NCBI RefSeq assembly: GCF_001723305.1
Contig: NZ_LPWF01000033.1
Location: 1 to 64,000, forward strand
Source of the DNA: Methyloceanibacter superfactus
GTDB taxonomy: Bacteria; Pseudomonadota; Alphaproteobacteria; Rhizobiales; Methyloligellaceae
Length of the DNA: 64,000 nt
Reading direction: 5' to 3'
Below are positions 11,220 through 18,056 of this stretch, in pieces. Both the position numbers and the translations under genes were made by a program. Each line of letters starts with the position of its first letter. Within the stretch, counting starts at the first letter, position 1. The notes beneath the pieces were generated by a model. It was not told the DNA's origin and did no database searches. It saw nothing but the letters and a program-made list of their open reading frames with translations.

Positions 11220-12320
11220 ATGACGGCCAAACGTGGGCCAAACCCGCGTCCAGGCATTCTCGACATCGCGCCCTATGTCCCGGGCACGAGCGCGCTCCCT
11301 GGCGCCGGCGCGGTGGTCAAGCTGTCCTCCAACGAGACGCCGCTGGGGCCGTCCCCGCGCGCGGTCGAGGCTTATCTCGAGCAGGCCGCCCATCTGTCGC
11401 GCTACCCCGACGGCTCGGCGCGGCCCTTGCGCGAGGCGCTCGCCAAGCTCTACGGCCTGGACGCGGCCCGCATCGTGGCGGGCGCCGGCTCCGACGAGAT
11501 CCTGAACCTGCTGGCCGCCGCCTATCTCGGGCCGGGCGACGAGGCGATCTACTCCGAGCACGGCTTCCTCGTCTACAAGATCGCCATTCTCGCGCACGGC
11601 GCCACGCCGGTGCCGGCGCCCGAACGCAACCTGACCGCCGACGTGGATGCCATCCTGGCGCGGGTGACCGAGGCCACGCGCCTGGTGTTCATCGCCAATC
11701 CCAACAATCCGACCGGCACCTACCTGCCGTTCGACGAGATCAAGCGGCTGCATGCCGGCCTGCCGGAGCATGTCATCCTCGTGCTCGACGCGGCCTATGC
11801 CGAATATGTCCGCGCCAACGACTACGAGGCCGGCATCGAGATGGTGGCGACGAGCGAGAACACGGTGATGACCCGCACCTTCTCCAAGATCTATGGGCTC
11901 GCGGCATTGCGTCTCGGCTGGGCCTATTGTCCGTCCGCCGTCGCTGATGTCCTGAATCGCATCCGCGGTCCGTTCAACGTGACGGGCCCGTCGATCGCCG
12001 CCGGCGTCGCCGCGCTGGCCGATCAGCCGCACATGGAGCAGGCCGTCGCGCACAACACGGTATGGCGCGCCCGCGTGGCCGAGGCGCTTGACCGCATCGG
12101 CTTGCACACCACGCCGAGCGCGGCGAACTTCCTGCTCGTGCATTTTCCGGACGGGACCTCCGCGCGCGAGGCCGACGCATTCCTGCATCAGCGGCGCATC
12201 ATCCTGCGCCGGGTGGAGGAATATGGCTTTCCGAATGCCTTGCGCCTGACCATCGGCACCGAGGACGAGAACAACGCGGTGCTCGAAGCACTCACCGAAT
12301 TCATGGACGGAGCGCGATGA
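11220..12320 (+). CDS. hisC: Histidinol-phosphate aminotransferase
   Basis: HisC is a class I/II PLP enzyme that transaminates imidazole-acetol phosphate; homologues beside tyrC often also serve tyrosine and phenylalanine synthesis. The PLP lysine is Lys223 in [33 protein letters not shown] and the C-terminal ALRLTIGT arginine are also present. The ATG at 11220 follows AAGGAGAGAG. The 366-residue length is standard. The stop overlaps the tyrC start as ATGA, so the two are coupled. Confidence 0.95.
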
Positions 12321-13243
12321 GCAAGCCGTTATTCGACACGCTGGCCATTATCGGCCCCGGCCTGATCGGGTCGTCGATCATGCGGGCGGCACGTGCGCAA
12401 GGTGCCGTGCGCAGCATCGTGACCAGCTCGCGGTCGCCTGAGACGCGCGCCCGCGTGGTCGCGCTGGGCATCGCAGACAAGGTCGTCGCGACCAACGCGG
12501 AAGCCGTCCAGGACGCCGACCTCGTCATCGTCTGCGTGCCCGTCGGCGTGTGCGGGGCCGTGGCGCAAGAGATCGCGCCCCATCTGAAAACCGGCGCCAT
12601 CGTGTCCGATGTCGGCTCGGTGAAGGCCTCCATCGTGCGCGACATGGGCCCGCATCTGCCGGACACCGTGCATTTCGTGCCGGCCCATCCGGTTGCCGGC
12701 ACCGAGCATTCCGGCCCCGATGCCGGCTTCGCCGAGCTGTTCGAGAATCGCTGGTGCATTCTGACGCCGCCCGAGGGCACCGACAAAGAGGCCGTCGACC
12801 GGCTCAGCGCCTTCTGGACCCTGCTCGGCGCCAATGTGGAGATCATGACGCCGGAGCATCACGACCTGGTGCTCGCGGTCACCAGCCACCTGCCGCATCT
12901 CATCGCCTACACGATTGTCGGCACGGCGGACGAGCTGGAGACGGTAACCCGCTCGGAGGTGCTGAAATTCTCCGCCGGCGGCTTCCGCGACTTCACCCGC
13001 ATCGCCGCCTCCGATCCGACCATGTGGCGCGACATCTTCCTCGCCAACAAGGACGCGGTGCTCGAGATGCTCGGCCGCTTCAACGAGGACGTCTCCGCCC
13101 TGACCAAGGCCATCCGTCATGGCGATGGCGACGCGCTGTTCGAGCAGTTCACCCGTACCCGCGCCATCCGCCGCGGCATCATCGATGCGGGCCAGGACAC
13201 GCCGGACGCCGATTTCGGCCGCCCCCACGGGCATGACGACTAG
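12317..13243 (+). CDS. tyrC: Prephenate/arogenate dehydrogenase
   Basis: The enzyme oxidatively decarboxylates prephenate or arogenate in tyrosine synthesis. The 308-residue protein has the NAD-binding GPGLIGSS at 13-20, [10 protein letters not shown], the [11 protein letters not shown] helix and [14 protein letters not shown]. The C-terminus ends [10 protein letters not shown]. It is intact here, but pieces of its 3' part recur at 14434 and 16705 (see those entries). It is coupled to hisC by an ATGA overlap. Symbol choice (tyrC or tyrA) depends on substrate, which the sequence does not settle. Confidence 0.93.
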
Positions 13244-13355
13244 ACGCGCCGTTTCGCATCCTCTGATCGATCAACTTGAGGATTTCATCTTCACCAGACT
13301 GCAAGGGCAACCATGTACCGCTAGCGGCCACAGCCGAACGATAGGACCTGCGGTC

Positions 13356-14420
13356 ATGGAACCGTCGCCACGCATTAAGCCCTCTGCCAGGGCAAAATCA
13401 AAGAACCCGACCCCCCATCCTGGGTCCAAACGGGGGGCTGTTACCGTTCGAAACGACGTGCCGTTCGCATCTCTTGCTCAGGCATTAACGGCACTCCGGC
13501 CGGATGACGCGCAGGCAAGGCTCTTCGGGGAGCTTAATCGCTGCTTGGACGTCGCGCTCAACAACATGGGCCGCGGCCTTTCCATGTTCGATGCCGAAGC
13601 ACGGCTAATCGTCTGCAACAAGCTGTATTGCGAAATATATTCGTTACCCGAGACGCTGACTCGACCGGGTACCCCGTTGGCCGCGATCTTGCGCTATCAC
13701 GTCAAGAACGAAACAGGTCGAGATGATCCGCAGGAGTTGGAAAGACAGCGAAAGTGGATCGCGACTCACGTCGCGGCGTTGGCTTTGGGAAGGTCATTCT
13801 CGCATACCCAATCTCTAAAGAACGGCCGCATCGTCCTAGTAAGCAATCAGCCCCTTGCCGGTGGTGGATGGGTTGATATTCAGGAGGACATAACGGAGAG
13901 GCGACGAGCGGAGAATAAGATCGATTGGCTTGCGCGTCATGACACGCTGACCGAGGTTGCCAACCGGCATCAATTCAATGAGCAACTGGAAGAATGGTGT
14001 GCGGCTTTGCCAGAAGGACACGCATTTGCCCTTCACTGGATTGATCTCGATCACTTCAAAGAGGTGAATGACACTCTGGGACATCCCACTGGGGATGCCT
14101 TGCTAAAGAGTGTGGCCAATCGAATTCGCAAGGTGTTGCGCGGAACGGATACCGTGGGCCGGCTGGGTGGTGATGAATTTGCAGTCCTCCAAGCCGGGGC
14201 TGCCGACCAATCTCAGGCGATAAAGTTGGTCGAGCGCATTCAGCGTGCGCTCGCTGAACCTCATTGTGTACTCGGGAACCAAGTCGCCATGGGCGCTAGC
14301 ATCGGCATCGCTTTAGCACCGAAAGACGGTTGCGATCCCGAAGTCCTCATGAAGAAAGCTGACCTCGCACTTTATGATGCAAAGACATCTGGACGCAGCA
14401 CTTACGTCTTCTGTCCATAG
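13356..14420 (+). CDS. PAS-GGDEF diguanylate cyclase
   Basis: The 354-residue protein makes c-di-GMP from two GTP. It has a PAS_7-type sensor region at about residues 70-180 (LDVALNNMGRGLSMFDAEARL) and a GGDEF domain with an intact active site GGDEF at 271-275. The product-inhibition site RGTD lies at 262-265, five residues upstream as in inhibited cyclases. The ATG at 13356 follows AGGA at 13343-13346. Base composition is visibly less GC-rich than in tyrC or the SDR on either side, and a tyrC tail copy follows it directly, so I infer that it was inserted here. Confidence 0.9.
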   Translation: MEPSPRIKPSARAKSKNPTPHPGSKRGAVTVRNDVPFASLAQALTALRPDDAQARLFGELNRCLDVALNNMGRGLSMFDAEARLIVCNKLYCEIYSLPETLTRPGTPLAAILRYHVKNETGRDDPQELERQRKWIATHVAALALGRSFSHTQSLKNGRIVLVSNQPLAGGGWVDIQEDITERRRAENKIDWLARHDTLTEVANRHQFNEQLEEWCAALPEGHAFALHWIDLDHFKEVNDTLGHPTGDALLKSVANRIRKVLRGTDTVGRLGGDEFAVLQAGAADQSQAIKLVERIQRALAEPHCVLGNQVAMGASIGIALAPKDGCDPEVLMKKADLALYDAKTSGRSTYVFCP

Positions 14421-14433
14421 ATAGGCGAGTTGG

Positions 14434-14512
14434 CCGCGGCATCATCGAGGCCGGCCAGGACACGCCGGACGCCGACTTCGGCCGCCCGCACGGTCACAGG
14501 AGTAGCCCATAG
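14434..14512 (+). pseudogene. Detached tyrC 3'-end copy (tail B)
   Basis: Positions 14434-14493 match tyrC 13171-13230 at 56 of 60 bases, counted by eye. The tyrC frame is kept and reads [20 protein letters not shown], then HRSSP and a TAG at 14510-14512. Three of the four differences are silent and one changes Asp to Glu. That pattern fits an allele from a related strain rather than a fresh copy of the adjacent gene. It lies 14 bases after the diguanylate cyclase stop and abuts the SDR gene. Confidence 0.85.
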
Positions 14513-15358
14513 CTAACGCGTGCGTGGAATGCCCAGATAGCGCGTGGTGCCCCGGCGGATGAAGCGGGTCGGGATCTTGCCGCGCAGGAAATGATCGAGC
14601 CGCGCGAAGAAGCCGACCGGATAACGGAATTTCGGGCTCTTGGCTTCGAGCGCGGTGGCGATCGCCTCCGCCACCTCCTGCGGGTCGCGCGCCGTCTTGG
14701 CCTCGTGCTGGTCGGCGCCGCGGAACACCTGCTCAAGCCAGGGGAGATATTCGCTGTCTTCCGGCAGGATGCGCGGCGTGCTGCGCCAGATCTCCGTGCG
14801 GTAAGGGCCGGGCTCGACCAGGATGACGTGGATGCCGAAACCGTCGAGCTCGAAGGCGATCGACTCGGCCCAACCTTCGAGCGCCCATTTCGAGGCGCAG
14901 TAGATCGAGTTGGCCGGCTGGCCGGCAAACGCCGCTTGGCTCGAGACCATGACGATGCGGCCGTGCTTCTGCGCGCGGAATGTCGGTAGCAACACCCGCG
15001 TCAGGGCCAGAACGCCGAAGAAATTCGTCTCCATCACCCGACGGATGTCGGCGTCGGGCATGTCCTCATGCGCCCCGGCGACCGCCACCCCCGCATTTTG
15101 CACGACCGCGTCGAGCGAACCGCCGGTCTCGGCCAGGACCGCGGCGACCGCAGCTTCAATTGATGCGGGATCGTTGACGTCGAGTTGCAGGAGGGTGACT
15201 TGGCTTTCGACGCCGGCCTTCTTCAGCCCGCGCTCGAGCCGATCCTTCTTGGCCAGGTCGCGCATGGTGGCGAACACGCGCCAGCCTTTCGCGGCAAGAA
15301 GCTCGGCCGTGACGCGCCCGATGCCTGTCGATGTGCCGGTGATGAGAACCGTTGGCAT
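14513..15358 (-). CDS. Short-chain dehydrogenase/reductase
   Basis: The 281-residue classical SDR has the cofactor motif TGTSTGIG at residues 7-14, QNAGVAVAG, a catalytic serine in VMVSSQAAF and the YCASK pair. The C-terminal FFARLDHFLRGKIPTRF is a long extension. Substrate is unknown. It is divergent from the AlkB-like monooxygenase gene; an oxidoreductase for the resulting alcohol or aldehyde is a natural partner, but this is inference from position. It lies in the tyrC-chaC accessory block. Confidence 0.9.
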   Translation of the reverse strand: MPTVLITGTSTGIGRVTAELLAAKGWRVFATMRDLAKKDRLERGLKKAGVESQVTLLQLDVNDPASIEAAVAAVLAETGGSLDAVVQNAGVAVAGAHEDMPDADIRRVMETNFFGVLALTRVLLPTFRAQKHGRIVMVSSQAAFAGQPANSIYCASKWALEGWAESIAFELDGFGIHVILVEPGPYRTEIWRSTPRILPEDSEYLPWLEQVFRGADQHEAKTARDPQEVAEAIATALEAKSPKFRYPVGFFARLDHFLRGKIPTRFIRRGTTRYLGIPRTR

Positions 15359-15419
15359 TTACCCTCCTGCCGATCGCTTGCCCGCTTTCCGCGCCCGGCT
15401 ATGGTAATCGAGAAGCACA

Positions 15420-15443
15420 GTCTGTTGCCAATTTGTTACAGAC
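15420..15443. promoter_or_regulatory. Inverted repeat in the SDR/AlkB-like divergent promoter
   Basis: GTCTGT at 15420-15425 and ACAGAC at 15438-15443 form a symmetric pair across 12 bases, in the 140-base gap between two divergent genes. The size and spacing suit a dimeric regulator of the TetR or LysR kind. No regulator gene lies beside it. Confidence 0.4.
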
Positions 15444-15498
15444 ACTCTTGGTGGTCAGCCCTATTTTTGCCCCTGATCTTGACCGGCATATTTGCTTC

Positions 15499-16683
15499 AT
15501 GACGACCGATACCGACAGCGCCCGTAGACTGGCTCGCGCCGATGCCGGGGCCTCCGCGCCCCACGCGAAAGACGCGGCCAAGCCCTCCCTCTTCCGCCGC
15601 GACAGTCTGCTGGCGACCTGGCGCTATATGTCGGCCAATGTCCTCCTGGCGCTCGGCGCGGGCTCGCTGGTCGTTGGCGGCTATGCGCCCTTCCTGGTTA
15701 TCGCCGTGGCCATGGCCGTCGCATCCTTCGCCGACGAGGCCAGCGGCGACGACCGCATCACGCTGAGCGACCGCGCCCGCGCCTTCTGCAATTTCAATCT
15801 CTATTTGTCTCTCCCGCTGATCAGCCTGTTGGCCATTCTGCTCGTGCGGTTCGCCGCGGAGCGCCCGAACCCTCTTGAGTGGCCGCTGGAATGGATCGGC
15901 GCCTTGTGGGTGACGGGCTATCTCTTTGCCCTGGTCGGCGCCACGGTCGGCCATGAGCTCACCCATCGGCCCGGCACGCTGGCCAAGCTGGTCGCGCAGA
16001 TCCTGCTCGGCTTCACCGGAAATTCCTCCTTCGCCATCTATCATGTCTATGTCCATCACCGGCAGGTGGGCACCTTTGACGATGCGTCGACGGCGCGGCG
16101 CGGCGAACGCTTGCGGACTTTCGTGGCGCGGGCTTTGGTGCAGCAATTCGCTCAAGCCGCGCAGGTCGAGGCGGCACGCCTGCGCCGCAAGGGGCTCACC
16201 GTTTGGTCCTGGCACAACCGGCTAATCCAGGCGCATCTCGCGCCGCTGTCGATCCTCGTGCTTGCGCTGATCCTCGGGGGGCCCGCCGGTCTCTTGGCGA
16301 TCTTCCTCGCCGGCCTGCTCGGGCGCCTATTCCACGAGCTCATCAACTATGTGCAGCATTTTGGGCTGGTGCGCGTCGAGAATACGCCGATCCGGCCGCA
16401 TCACAGCTGGGACAGCTACCGGACGATCTCCAACATCCTGCACTACAATCTGCCGCGTCACTCCGACCATCACATGTTCGCCACCAAGCCGTTTTGGCAG
16501 CTGGACGCACCGGACAACGCCCCGATGCTGCCCTACGGCTACCAGACCATGGCGTTCATCGCGCTTACGCCCCCGCTCTGGCGGCGGATCATGCGGGAGC
16601 TGTTGGTGGACTGGGACAAGAACTTTGCCAGCGATGCCGAGCGCGAGATTGTGCGCGCCCGCGGCTGGGAAGGCCTCGCTTAA
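15499..16683 (+). CDS. AlkB-like integral-membrane di-iron monooxygenase
   Basis: The 394-residue protein belongs to the membrane-bound hydroxylase/desaturase superfamily and is closest in motifs to alkane 1-monooxygenase. Histidine boxes are HELTH at 152-156, HVYVHH at 182-187, NYVQHFG in the alkane-hydroxylase position and HSDHH at 321-325. Several hydrophobic helices separate them. Such enzymes hydroxylate alkyl chains using rubredoxin electrons; no rubredoxin gene is in the window, so substrate and electron donor are open. The ATG at 15499 lacks a clear ribosome site. A decayed tyrC piece follows it. Confidence 0.85.
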   Translation: MTTDTDSARRLARADAGASAPHAKDAAKPSLFRRDSLLATWRYMSANVLLALGAGSLVVGGYAPFLVIAVAMAVASFADEASGDDRITLSDRARAFCNFNLYLSLPLISLLAILLVRFAAERPNPLEWPLEWIGALWVTGYLFALVGATVGHELTHRPGTLAKLVAQILLGFTGNSSFAIYHVYVHHRQVGTFDDASTARRGERLRTFVARALVQQFAQAAQVEAARLRRKGLTVWSWHNRLIQAHLAPLSILVLALILGGPAGLLAIFLAGLLGRLFHELINYVQHFGLVRVENTPIRPHHSWDSYRTISNILHYNLPRHSDHHMFATKPFWQLDAPDNAPMLPYGYQTMAFIALTPPLWRRIMRELLVDWDKNFASDAEREIVRARGWEGLA

Positions 16684-16704
16684 CGACGTCGCGCATAGGG
16701 CGTG

Positions 16705-16827
16705 CGGTTTCGGATCACCGCGTCTACTGATCCCGTCATGCGCCGCGACGTGTTCTTGAACAACAAGGAGGCGATGCTGGAAGTGCTCGGCCACTTTTGC
16801 GAATGTGGTCTTAGCCGGGCCGGCTGA
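16705..16827 (+). pseudogene. Decayed internal tyrC fragment (fragment C)
   Basis: One frame reads FRITASTDPVMRRDVFL, then NNKEAMLEVLGHFCE, matching tyrC residues [13 protein letters not shown] and [12 protein letters not shown] at about 16 of 25 positions by eye. The corresponding DNA (16729-16805 against 13013-13089) is roughly 70-75% identical. The frame ends at a TGA at 16825-16827. No start or upstream part is present. It is much more diverged than tail B, so the two remnants have different origins. Confidence 0.75.
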
Positions 16828-16882
16828 CGGCACGGCCAGTTTCAAGGCTCGTGCCCACTACCTGACTCAACGGGGGAGTGAC

Positions 16883-17458
16883 TTGATCAAATATCTGAGC
16901 CAACTCATACAAAACTACCTAGACGCCTGGACGAGCAGCATTTTCAAGACCGGAAAAGACGGGCGCAAACTGTTCTTTCCGAGGGGGGTATTGGGCCGCG
17001 GTTACGTCATTGCCTCGGAGCAGGACTACGAACGCCTAGTGCGGCAAACCAAGGCCCTTTGCGTCGTCGGGCTGGTTCTGGGAATTGGCTTCACGACGCT
17101 AGGTGTCCTCCTAGAGAGGTACCTCGCGCTCTTCATCGGCGCAGCGGTTCTACTATTTCTCTACCACATGGCTGTGGTCCCATACCTTGTGCGTGGCATG
17201 CAGCCTTCCGACGAAAGACTGTCGCTGAAAGGGGCCTACACCTCCGAGGCAATTACGCTCAAACCGGCTCACCTGTGGTGGCTTGAAATTGGCTTGCTTG
17301 CCGGTGTCGGTGTCGGTGTTGTCACGCTTATCGTCGACCCAGCTAACTGGCTCACCGCGCTCGCCTTGATCGTCCTTTGTGGTTTCCTCGCGGCCTTTGG
17401 TATGTGGATGATCATCCTGCGGCGGCGCGCGAGCGGTCAGGAGGCGCCACACTCATGA
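16883..17458 (+). CDS. Four-helix membrane protein of unknown function
   Basis: I recognise no family. The 191-residue protein begins at a TTG at 16883 behind GGGGGAG at 16872-16878, which decides the start. It has about 70 cytoplasmic residues rich in Lys/Arg/Tyr, then two paired hydrophobic segments (CVVGLVLGIGFTTLGVLL and LFIGAAVLLFLYHMAVV). A loop with DERLSLKGAY and another helix pair near the C-terminus follow. It lies between the decayed tyrC fragment and chaC, is less GC-rich than its neighbours, and is probably part of the accessory block. Confidence 0.7.
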   Translation: MIKYLSQLIQNYLDAWTSSIFKTGKDGRKLFFPRGVLGRGYVIASEQDYERLVRQTKALCVVGLVLGIGFTTLGVLLERYLALFIGAAVLLFLYHMAVVPYLVRGMQPSDERLSLKGAYTSEAITLKPAHLWWLEIGLLAGVGVGVVTLIVDPANWLTALALIVLCGFLAAFGMWMIILRRRASGQEAPHS

Positions 17459-17525
17459 CTTGCGGGCGGCCACGCGTTGACGACCGCATGTCCTAGATCG
17501 GAGCAAAGTCAGGACAGGGCGCTAC

Positions 17526-18056
17526 ATGACTGAGCTTTGGGTCTTCGGATACGGCTCGCTGATGTGGCGGCCGGGCTTTCCCCATGACATGCAAACGCCG
17601 GGTCTGCTCCGGGGCGCCCACCGCGCGCTTTGCGTCTATTCCGTCGTGCACCGCGGCACCCACGAACAGCCGGGTCTCGTGCTCGGACTCGACCGCGGCG
17701 GCGCTTGCCGCGGCGTGGCCTTCCGCGTCAGCAAAGGCGCCGAGGAAGCGACCGTCGCGTATTTGCGCGATCGCGAACAAGTCACCGAGGTCTATCGCGA
17801 AGCCTACCGCCCCGTGCGCCTGCTCGACGGCTCGGGCCGGACGGTGCGCGCCCTCACCTTTCTCGCCAATCCCAGTCACGCCCAATATGCCGGCAGGCTC
17901 AGTCTCGACGAGCAGCTCCGCATCGTGCGGACCTGCTGCGGCGAAGCGGGCGACAATGTCGAATATGTTCTGAACACGGTGCGGCATTTGGAGGAGGAAG
18001 GCGTGCATGACGTCGGCCTGGCGCACCTCGCCACGCACTTGAGGCGCAACGCCTAG
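17526..18056 (+). CDS. chaC: Glutathione-specific gamma-glutamylcyclotransferase (ChaC family)
   Basis: ChaC enzymes split glutathione into 5-oxoproline and Cys-Gly. The 176-residue protein has the substrate-cradle motif WVFGYGSLMWRPGF near the N-terminus, then RGVAFRV, and the C-terminal DNVEYVLNTVRHLEEEGV helix. The ATG is at 17526. The stop shares a CTAG palindrome with the convergent GGDEF-EAL gene, an overlap of four bases. It marks the right edge of the accessory block that begins after tyrC. Confidence 0.9.
   Translation: MTELWVFGYGSLMWRPGFPHDMQTPGLLRGAHRALCVYSVVHRGTHEQPGLVLGLDRGGACRGVAFRVSKGAEEATVAYLRDREQVTEVYREAYRPVRLLDGSGRTVRALTFLANPSHAQYAGRLSLDEQLRIVRTCCGEAGDNVEYVLNTVRHLEEEGVHDVGLAHLATHLRRNA

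Follow-up and report, generated by a model that had tools for sequence, protein, structure and literature searches.

A probable layered recombination scar holding displaced pieces of tyrC between tyrC and chaC in Methyloceanibacter superfactus

In the stretch of DNA analysed here from the marine methylotroph Methyloceanibacter superfactus (the window, bases 1-64000 of the 102,918-base contig NZ_LPWF01000033.1 in a 3.1 Mb draft genome), a block of 4.28 kb (4282 bp) separates tyrC, a prephenate/arogenate dehydrogenase gene of tyrosine synthesis, from chaC and contains two displaced pieces of tyrC together with cargo genes. We suggest that this block is probably a layered recombination scar and not a mobile element, the cargo having been captured by one-sided homologous import at tyrC. 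That core genes can serve as sites of cargo capture through recombination is already known; what is new here is a well-preserved and unusually legible case. The gene order is metX (minus strand), hisC, tyrC, a PAS-GGDEF gene, the tyrC tail, a short-chain dehydrogenase (SDR) gene (minus strand), an AlkB-like gene, the internal tyrC piece, an open reading frame (ORF) for a membrane protein, chaC and an EAL-GGDEF gene (minus strand), the names metX and hisC being our own assignments. The features that matter to the argument are the following, with GC3 standing for the guanine-cytosine (GC) content at third codon positions.

12317..13243, plus strand: tyrC, an intact prephenate/arogenate dehydrogenase gene and a mosaic (Pfam PDH_N/PDH_C, NCBIfam NF005694, block identities, trees), Xanthobacteraceae-like from residue 1 to about 280 and genus-type in its last 28 residues
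13356..14420, plus strand: PAS_7-GGDEF diguanylate cyclase gene, cargo, GC3 58.6 (Pfam, composition)
14433..14504, plus strand: 3' end of tyrC (codons about 285-308), displaced but nearly intact, with a small deletion near the stop
14513..15358, minus strand: SDR gene, cargo, normal composition (Pfam adh_short)
15499..16683, plus strand: cargo gene for an AlkB-like membrane hydroxylase (FA_desaturase family), transcribed divergently from the SDR gene
16708..16839, plus strand: decayed internal piece of tyrC, displaced and with one stop, covering codons about 226-270, of which 226-257 are the best part
16805..17458, plus strand: cargo ORF of uncertain start (GC3 68.3) for a predicted membrane protein that has no Pfam family
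17526..18056, plus strand: chaC (Pfam ChaC), the right border of the block

When the tyrC protein was searched against its own genome at E<=0.001, only the intact gene and two further places were found, both inside the block: the tail copy (14420-14497, codons 281-306, E 3e-8) and the internal piece (16702-16839, codons 223-270, E 3e-5, with one stop). At the nucleotide level, 14433-14496 matches 13170-13233 of tyrC over 64 nt with 92% identity. Local alignment to 17 tyrC genes gave scores of 55.5 for the tail copy and 54.5 for the internal piece, against maxima of 22 and 24 in shuffles that permute two-base blocks, and in neither case was any of the 60 shuffles as good. The pieces measure 72 nt (tail) and about 132 nt (internal), and decay is greater in the internal piece, which lies farther from tyrC. 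An earlier note, made from the letters of this DNA, had described an intact tyrC, a tail copy with mostly silent changes behind the PAS-GGDEF gene and a decayed internal piece behind the AlkB-like gene. The first two statements hold as made, and the third holds in that the piece is real, although a decayed copy of the resident gene would be too simple a description of it. A third piece, which the note had faintly seen in 'CGRPRVDDR' at 17463-17485, was dropped because 39/60 shuffles score as well as the best alignment in 17440-17525 (13.0), a chance result.

Displaced-gene debris of this sort is rare in this genome. In a sample of 602 kb of the source genome, window included, with 506 ORFs of at least 120 aa, the same rule returned one other ORF with a fragment-like copy less than 8 kb away; this copy (L155:5415-5897, on contig C29 of genome G000) is 59% identical to the ORF at L155:2531-3793 and lies 1.6 kb downstream of it. 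Given that the genome is a metagenome-like draft of 38 contigs and 93% completeness, an assembly error might be thought to have produced the block. We hold this to be extremely improbable: the block starts 13.2 kb inside its long contig, and the pieces, which are degraded, are found at no other place in the genome.

We then compared the pieces with the available tyrC alleles. That they are in-place duplicates of the resident tyrC, since decayed, would suit the tail copy in one respect, as it is as near to the resident gene as to any other allele (57/62 bases, in a tie with the native allele of locus L020). However, six of the 21 codons compared with the resident tail differ, five of them silently and one non-silently, where a non-silent share of 0.74 is expected without selection (P=0.006). 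Because five of the six changed codons are silent, we favour two alleles for the tail copy: its divergence fits the meeting of two alleles better than the decay of a duplicate at the site. The internal piece also fits native alleles above the resident gene, with 48.1-51.6 bits against all nine native alleles (9/9) compared with 41.6 bits against the resident gene, 40.8-42.7 against the nearest relatives of the latter (L003, L004 and L008) and 39.7 against L006. Since the native tyrC type fits better, this piece is something other than a plain copy of the resident allele, and it would most simply be a remnant of the native tyrC that was replaced. Duplication in place is, on both counts, very unlikely.

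The resident tyrC itself is, by its sequence, a mosaic of two allele types. Blocks over residues 1-280 are 70-95% identical to Pseudolabrys (L034) and 39-90% identical to nine native alleles of the genus, and Pseudolabrys is clearly the closer in residues 1-176 (70-82% vs 39-70% native) and 251-280 (77% vs 50-63%). The last 28 residues are 71-96% identical to native alleles and 54% identical to Pseudolabrys. This foreign body is present in 8 of the 17 genus members, one of which (G008) is native-looking from about codon 205 on. In a tree of residues 1-225, the eight foreign-body alleles group with Xanthobacteraceae and relatives, with Shimodaira-Hasegawa-like approximate likelihood-ratio test (SH-aLRT) values of 84 and 90, and monophyly of the genus is rejected by the approximately unbiased (AU) test (p=0.0005). 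In a tree of residues 226-308, G008 shifts to the native group and genus monophyly is not rejected (p=0.22). The neighbouring genes tell a different history. The genus forms one clade in the hisC tree (97), where the eight foreign-body members are not one clade (p=1.8e-5), and again in the metX tree (93, below the starred level), where seven of the eight are not a clade (p=0.019); rows less than half filled number one for hisC (L008) and two for metX (L004 and L006). In the chaC tree, genus monophyly is not rejected (p=0.16). Because the hisC and metX trees conflict with the tyrC grouping, the movement of the foreign tyrC body has been independent of the genes beside it. The suggestion in the earlier note that related alleles took part through homologous recombination thus gains from four sides: the mosaic tyrC, the native-type internal piece, the silent changes in the tail and the different history of hisC.

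The arrangement of the locus in relatives points to tyrC and chaC as regular neighbours. A full-length tyrC was found in 28 of 29 other genomes of the family (G027 gave only a weak match), and in all 28 of these chaC follows on the same strand less than 1.5 kb after tyrC. Within the genus, only 1-80 bp lie between the tyrC stop and the first matched codon of chaC in 12 of 17 members. The chaC start codon falls inside the last tyrC codons in 8 of 16 loci (L006, L007, L016, L021 and L024-L027; L008 was left out of this check). Such an overlap of the chaC start with the tyrC end may explain why a genus-type tail survived replacement of the body. The remaining five members have wide junctions of 222-4282 bp, all five with different contents and three with genes, as follows.

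L005 (genome G004): 222 bp, L005:4928-5149, a dispersed repeat
L003: 263 bp
L004: 865 bp, a ZIP-family gene
L008 (genome G002): 1462 bp, an MFS gene
Window: 4282 bp, the block under study

The repeat in the L005 spacer is palindrome-rich, and the same repeat is found at the end of L009. With differing whole genes between two conserved genes, as seen here among species of the genus and not among strains, it is fair to say, as the earlier note did, that the site takes up cargo. In the comparison of tyrC-chaC intervals which that note had proposed, tyrC pieces beside cargo were found in the window alone. No displaced tyrC piece was accepted at 108 other tyrC loci searched up to 7 kb from tyrC (28 from the family and 80 from the genome_contigs set, with at least L031 and L084 coming from genomes that the count already includes). 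Five rows with E values of 0.002-0.09 and identities of 26-52% (L022, L098, L059, L041 and L036) were not counted as pieces, nor was a row in L008 (E 0.001), which is the frameshifted end of the tyrC of that locus. In the inserts of L003, L004, L005 and L008, tblastn finds no tyrC piece and alignment gives none that is clear: 4, 13, 29 and 1 of 60 shuffles, respectively, reach the best score, and the L008 match (1/60) is gap-ridden and to the other end of tyrC. Among the five spacers only weak matches were found, the best of which, between L008 and the reverse strand of the window, scored 27 vs a maximum of 21.5 in 25 shuffles, again of two-base blocks, and is gap-filled. All five wide junctions pair a foreign-body tyrC with a chaC that groups with the genus; we gave this pattern of spacing and chaC type no weight because chaC gave p=0.16 for the rest and the L005 spacer holds a dispersed repeat.

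Five genus members with five different contents are also what might be seen if the whole block had been assembled in an unsampled lineage and had entered once, by ordinary double crossover in tyrC and chaC. This account requires housekeeping recombination only, and Oliveira et al., in the passages cited here, propose as much for hotspots without mobile elements (PMC5635113). However, under this account the pieces were stranded in another genome by means that it does not explain, and no such block was found in the 17 genus genomes, so that we regard a single double crossover as unlikely but worth keeping in view.

The surroundings of the PAS-GGDEF gene bear on another account. This unit lies between the tyrC end and its 64-nt direct repeat (92%), as might result if a site-specific element whose integrase acted in trans or has been lost had entered the 3' end of tyrC, restored that end and left the old one on the far side; the earlier note had named an element targeting the tyrC end as one option. 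By contrast, the two pieces start at different places (about codons 281-285 vs 223-226), the internal one beginning about 60 codons earlier and lacking the tail, and the direct repeat is found at the PAS-GGDEF gene only and not at the SDR-AlkB unit. No clear tyrC repeat is present in the four related inserts (L003, L004, L005 and L008). No recombinase, integrase or transposase family was found among the cargo proteins of the window with Pfam, NCBIfam and PHROGs, the farther window genes not having been scanned, and within that scope the note was right to see no integrase; the insert genes of L004 and L008 likewise hold no integrase or transposase by Pfam, and there is no tRNA in the window. 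Entry of a site-specific element is therefore improbable, and the option raised in the note is not supported, the SDR-AlkB unit moreover being a gene pair that belongs to the chromosomes of the genus.

The evidence on that pair comes from sister genomes, where it lies elsewhere and not at tyrC. Relatives of the SDR protein, 68-76% identical, occur in 8 of 16 other genus genomes, and the SDR gene is divergent from the AlkB-like gene in seven of the eight loci read, a short contig of G004 showing the SDR gene alone. In four of the five loci with ORFs listed, the pair sits between genes that we take to be ccoI-like and hpnN-like; in G014 only the side that we take to be hpnN-like agrees. The ccoG-H-I-like genes are present in the source genome but do not adjoin the pair, and at 1e-40 no match to the hpnN-like gene was found there. 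The SDR gene (14513-15358, minus strand) had been left unnamed in the earlier note.

Combining these observations, we propose the following course of events. In the genus, tyrC and chaC are as a rule direct neighbours. In the lineage of the window, imported chromosomal DNA from relatives would have recombined with tyrC, turning most of the gene into a Xanthobacteraceae-like version. One end of the import would have been anchored by tyrC homology, and the other, without homology, may have been joined illegitimately, a join that would bring unrelated genes behind tyrC and strand older parts of tyrC beyond them. The block would record at least two such joins: the earlier, at the SDR-AlkB pair, would account for the decayed internal piece of native type, and the later, at the PAS-GGDEF gene, for the nearly intact tail. 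The broken junction probably tolerated further inserts. We favour one-sided homology because it accounts together for the replacement within tyrC, the cargo behind it and the pieces beyond the cargo. The data show directly that tyrC is a mosaic, that the two pieces are significant, that tyrC and chaC meet closely in most relatives and that the SDR-AlkB pair occurs elsewhere in the genus; from these remains we infer how many events there were and in which order, that joining took place by homology-facilitated illegitimate recombination, and how the DNA entered.

Several observations weigh against this course of events. No donor with tyrC adjoining this cargo was found, and no clear tyrC piece lies on the far side of the membrane ORF. 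The 64-nt direct repeat at the PAS-GGDEF join is what a site-specific element would also leave behind. SH-aLRT values for the key tyrC branches are 84-90, below 95, and the AU p-values are post hoc, the tyrC allele groups having been named after the block identities were seen. The internal piece scores 47.0-48.1 bits with three foreign-body alleles (L005, L007 and L009) and 48.5 and 49.7 bits with two genomes of another genus in the same family; because these alleles fit almost as well as the native ones, another allele may be its source. Finally, the gene transfer agent hub family was not found in the source genome. As a separate observation, the gene transfer agent family PF13547 is present in 5 of the 17 genus genomes (G001, G002, G003, G005 and G016), the source genome not being among them.

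A bolder reading of the block would make the 3' end of tyrC an integrase-free entry point for cassettes, at which each import renews the tyrC end, places a new cargo unit after it and pushes the older unit, with a stranded tyrC piece as its cap, towards chaC. If true, the block would be a dated record whose youngest unit adjoins tyrC, comparable to an integron that works through general recombination. We think this distinctly unlikely; the nearer piece is less decayed, yet two pieces are insufficient to prove an order. A possible recurrent breakpoint calls for similar caution. The tyrC of L008 matches the resident gene at 53-56/60 bases per block over nt 541-840 and then at 47/60 and 20/27; at its 3' end (L008:1076-1169) one base is lost just after CCGCGGC, and the tail allele differs from the body. 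The tail copy in the window begins at the same motif. The one-base loss could be an assembly error, and two cases are too few to name CCGCGGC a preferred breakpoint.

The cargo genes differ in composition. The PAS-GGDEF gene has a GC content of 55.2% and the membrane ORF one of 58.1%, compared with 65.6% for the window, in agreement with the note, which had called both less GC-rich. GC3 is 58.6 and 68.3 in these two and 80-88 in hisC, tyrC, SDR, AlkB, chaC and the EAL gene, with SDR and AlkB at 83-84. Solved alkane 1-monooxygenases are relatives of the AlkB-like protein (8f6t, E 1.7e-35), whose identification in the note is upheld. Within the family, the best relatives of the cyclase share 43-44% identity with it across PAS plus GGDEF, and up to 52% across GGDEF alone. 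Its start is uncertain, either ATG 13356 or GTG 13458. The frame is open from ATG 13233, inside the tyrC end, but GC by codon position is flat (57/57/56), and a start there is not claimed because this flatness argues against coding before about 13356. At the position of ATG 13233, 8 of 16 genus loci have their chaC start. For the membrane ORF, a single weak match was obtained among 248 other genomes of the order and none in plasmids.

The block shows how chromosomal genes can be acquired at a core biosynthesis gene without a mobile element and with debris of the replaced gene still present. With this debris the old allele, the new allele and the cargo can be distinguished, something that clean double crossovers do not permit. 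Should the layers be confirmed in strains, instances of one-sided recombination could become countable and datable in nature.

Among the matches listed in open-licence papers, nothing on this locus appeared in literature on horizontal gene transfer in Methyloceanibacter, or on illegitimate or xenologous recombination in connection with prephenate dehydrogenase or gene remnants. The nearest known systems are related in kind, and the comparisons that follow refer to the cited passages of each paper. Hotspots without mobile elements but with recombining flanking genes are well documented (2017, PMC5635113). They have in common with the block that variable genes lie beside a recombining core gene in conflict with its neighbours, as tyrC is with hisC and metX, and that no integrase is seen. 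They differ in being explained by double recombination in both flanks within a species, whereas species of one genus are compared here and stranded core-gene pieces suggest one-sided joining. The minimal mobile elements of Neisseria (PMC3082526) likewise place different whole genes between two conserved genes by homologous recombination; here no strains are compared, and pieces of a flanking gene are left behind. Homology-facilitated illegitimate recombination (via PMC5361080) resembles our proposal in that foreign DNA is gained with homology as the anchor at one end and an illegitimate join at the opposite end; here it would be read from a natural sequence. One-sided homology has also been proposed for stacked immunity genes of the type VI secretion system (T6SS) and for Rhs ends (Kirchberger et al. 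2017, PMC5361080). There, stranded genes are useful for immunity, whereas the tyrC pieces, at 72 and about 132 nt and one with a stop, are dead remains of a biosynthesis gene. In both, the 5' part of a gene is conserved, a new module follows it and the former 3' part ends up farther downstream, a sequential displacement of which the block keeps two stranded tyrC pieces, each behind a cargo unit.

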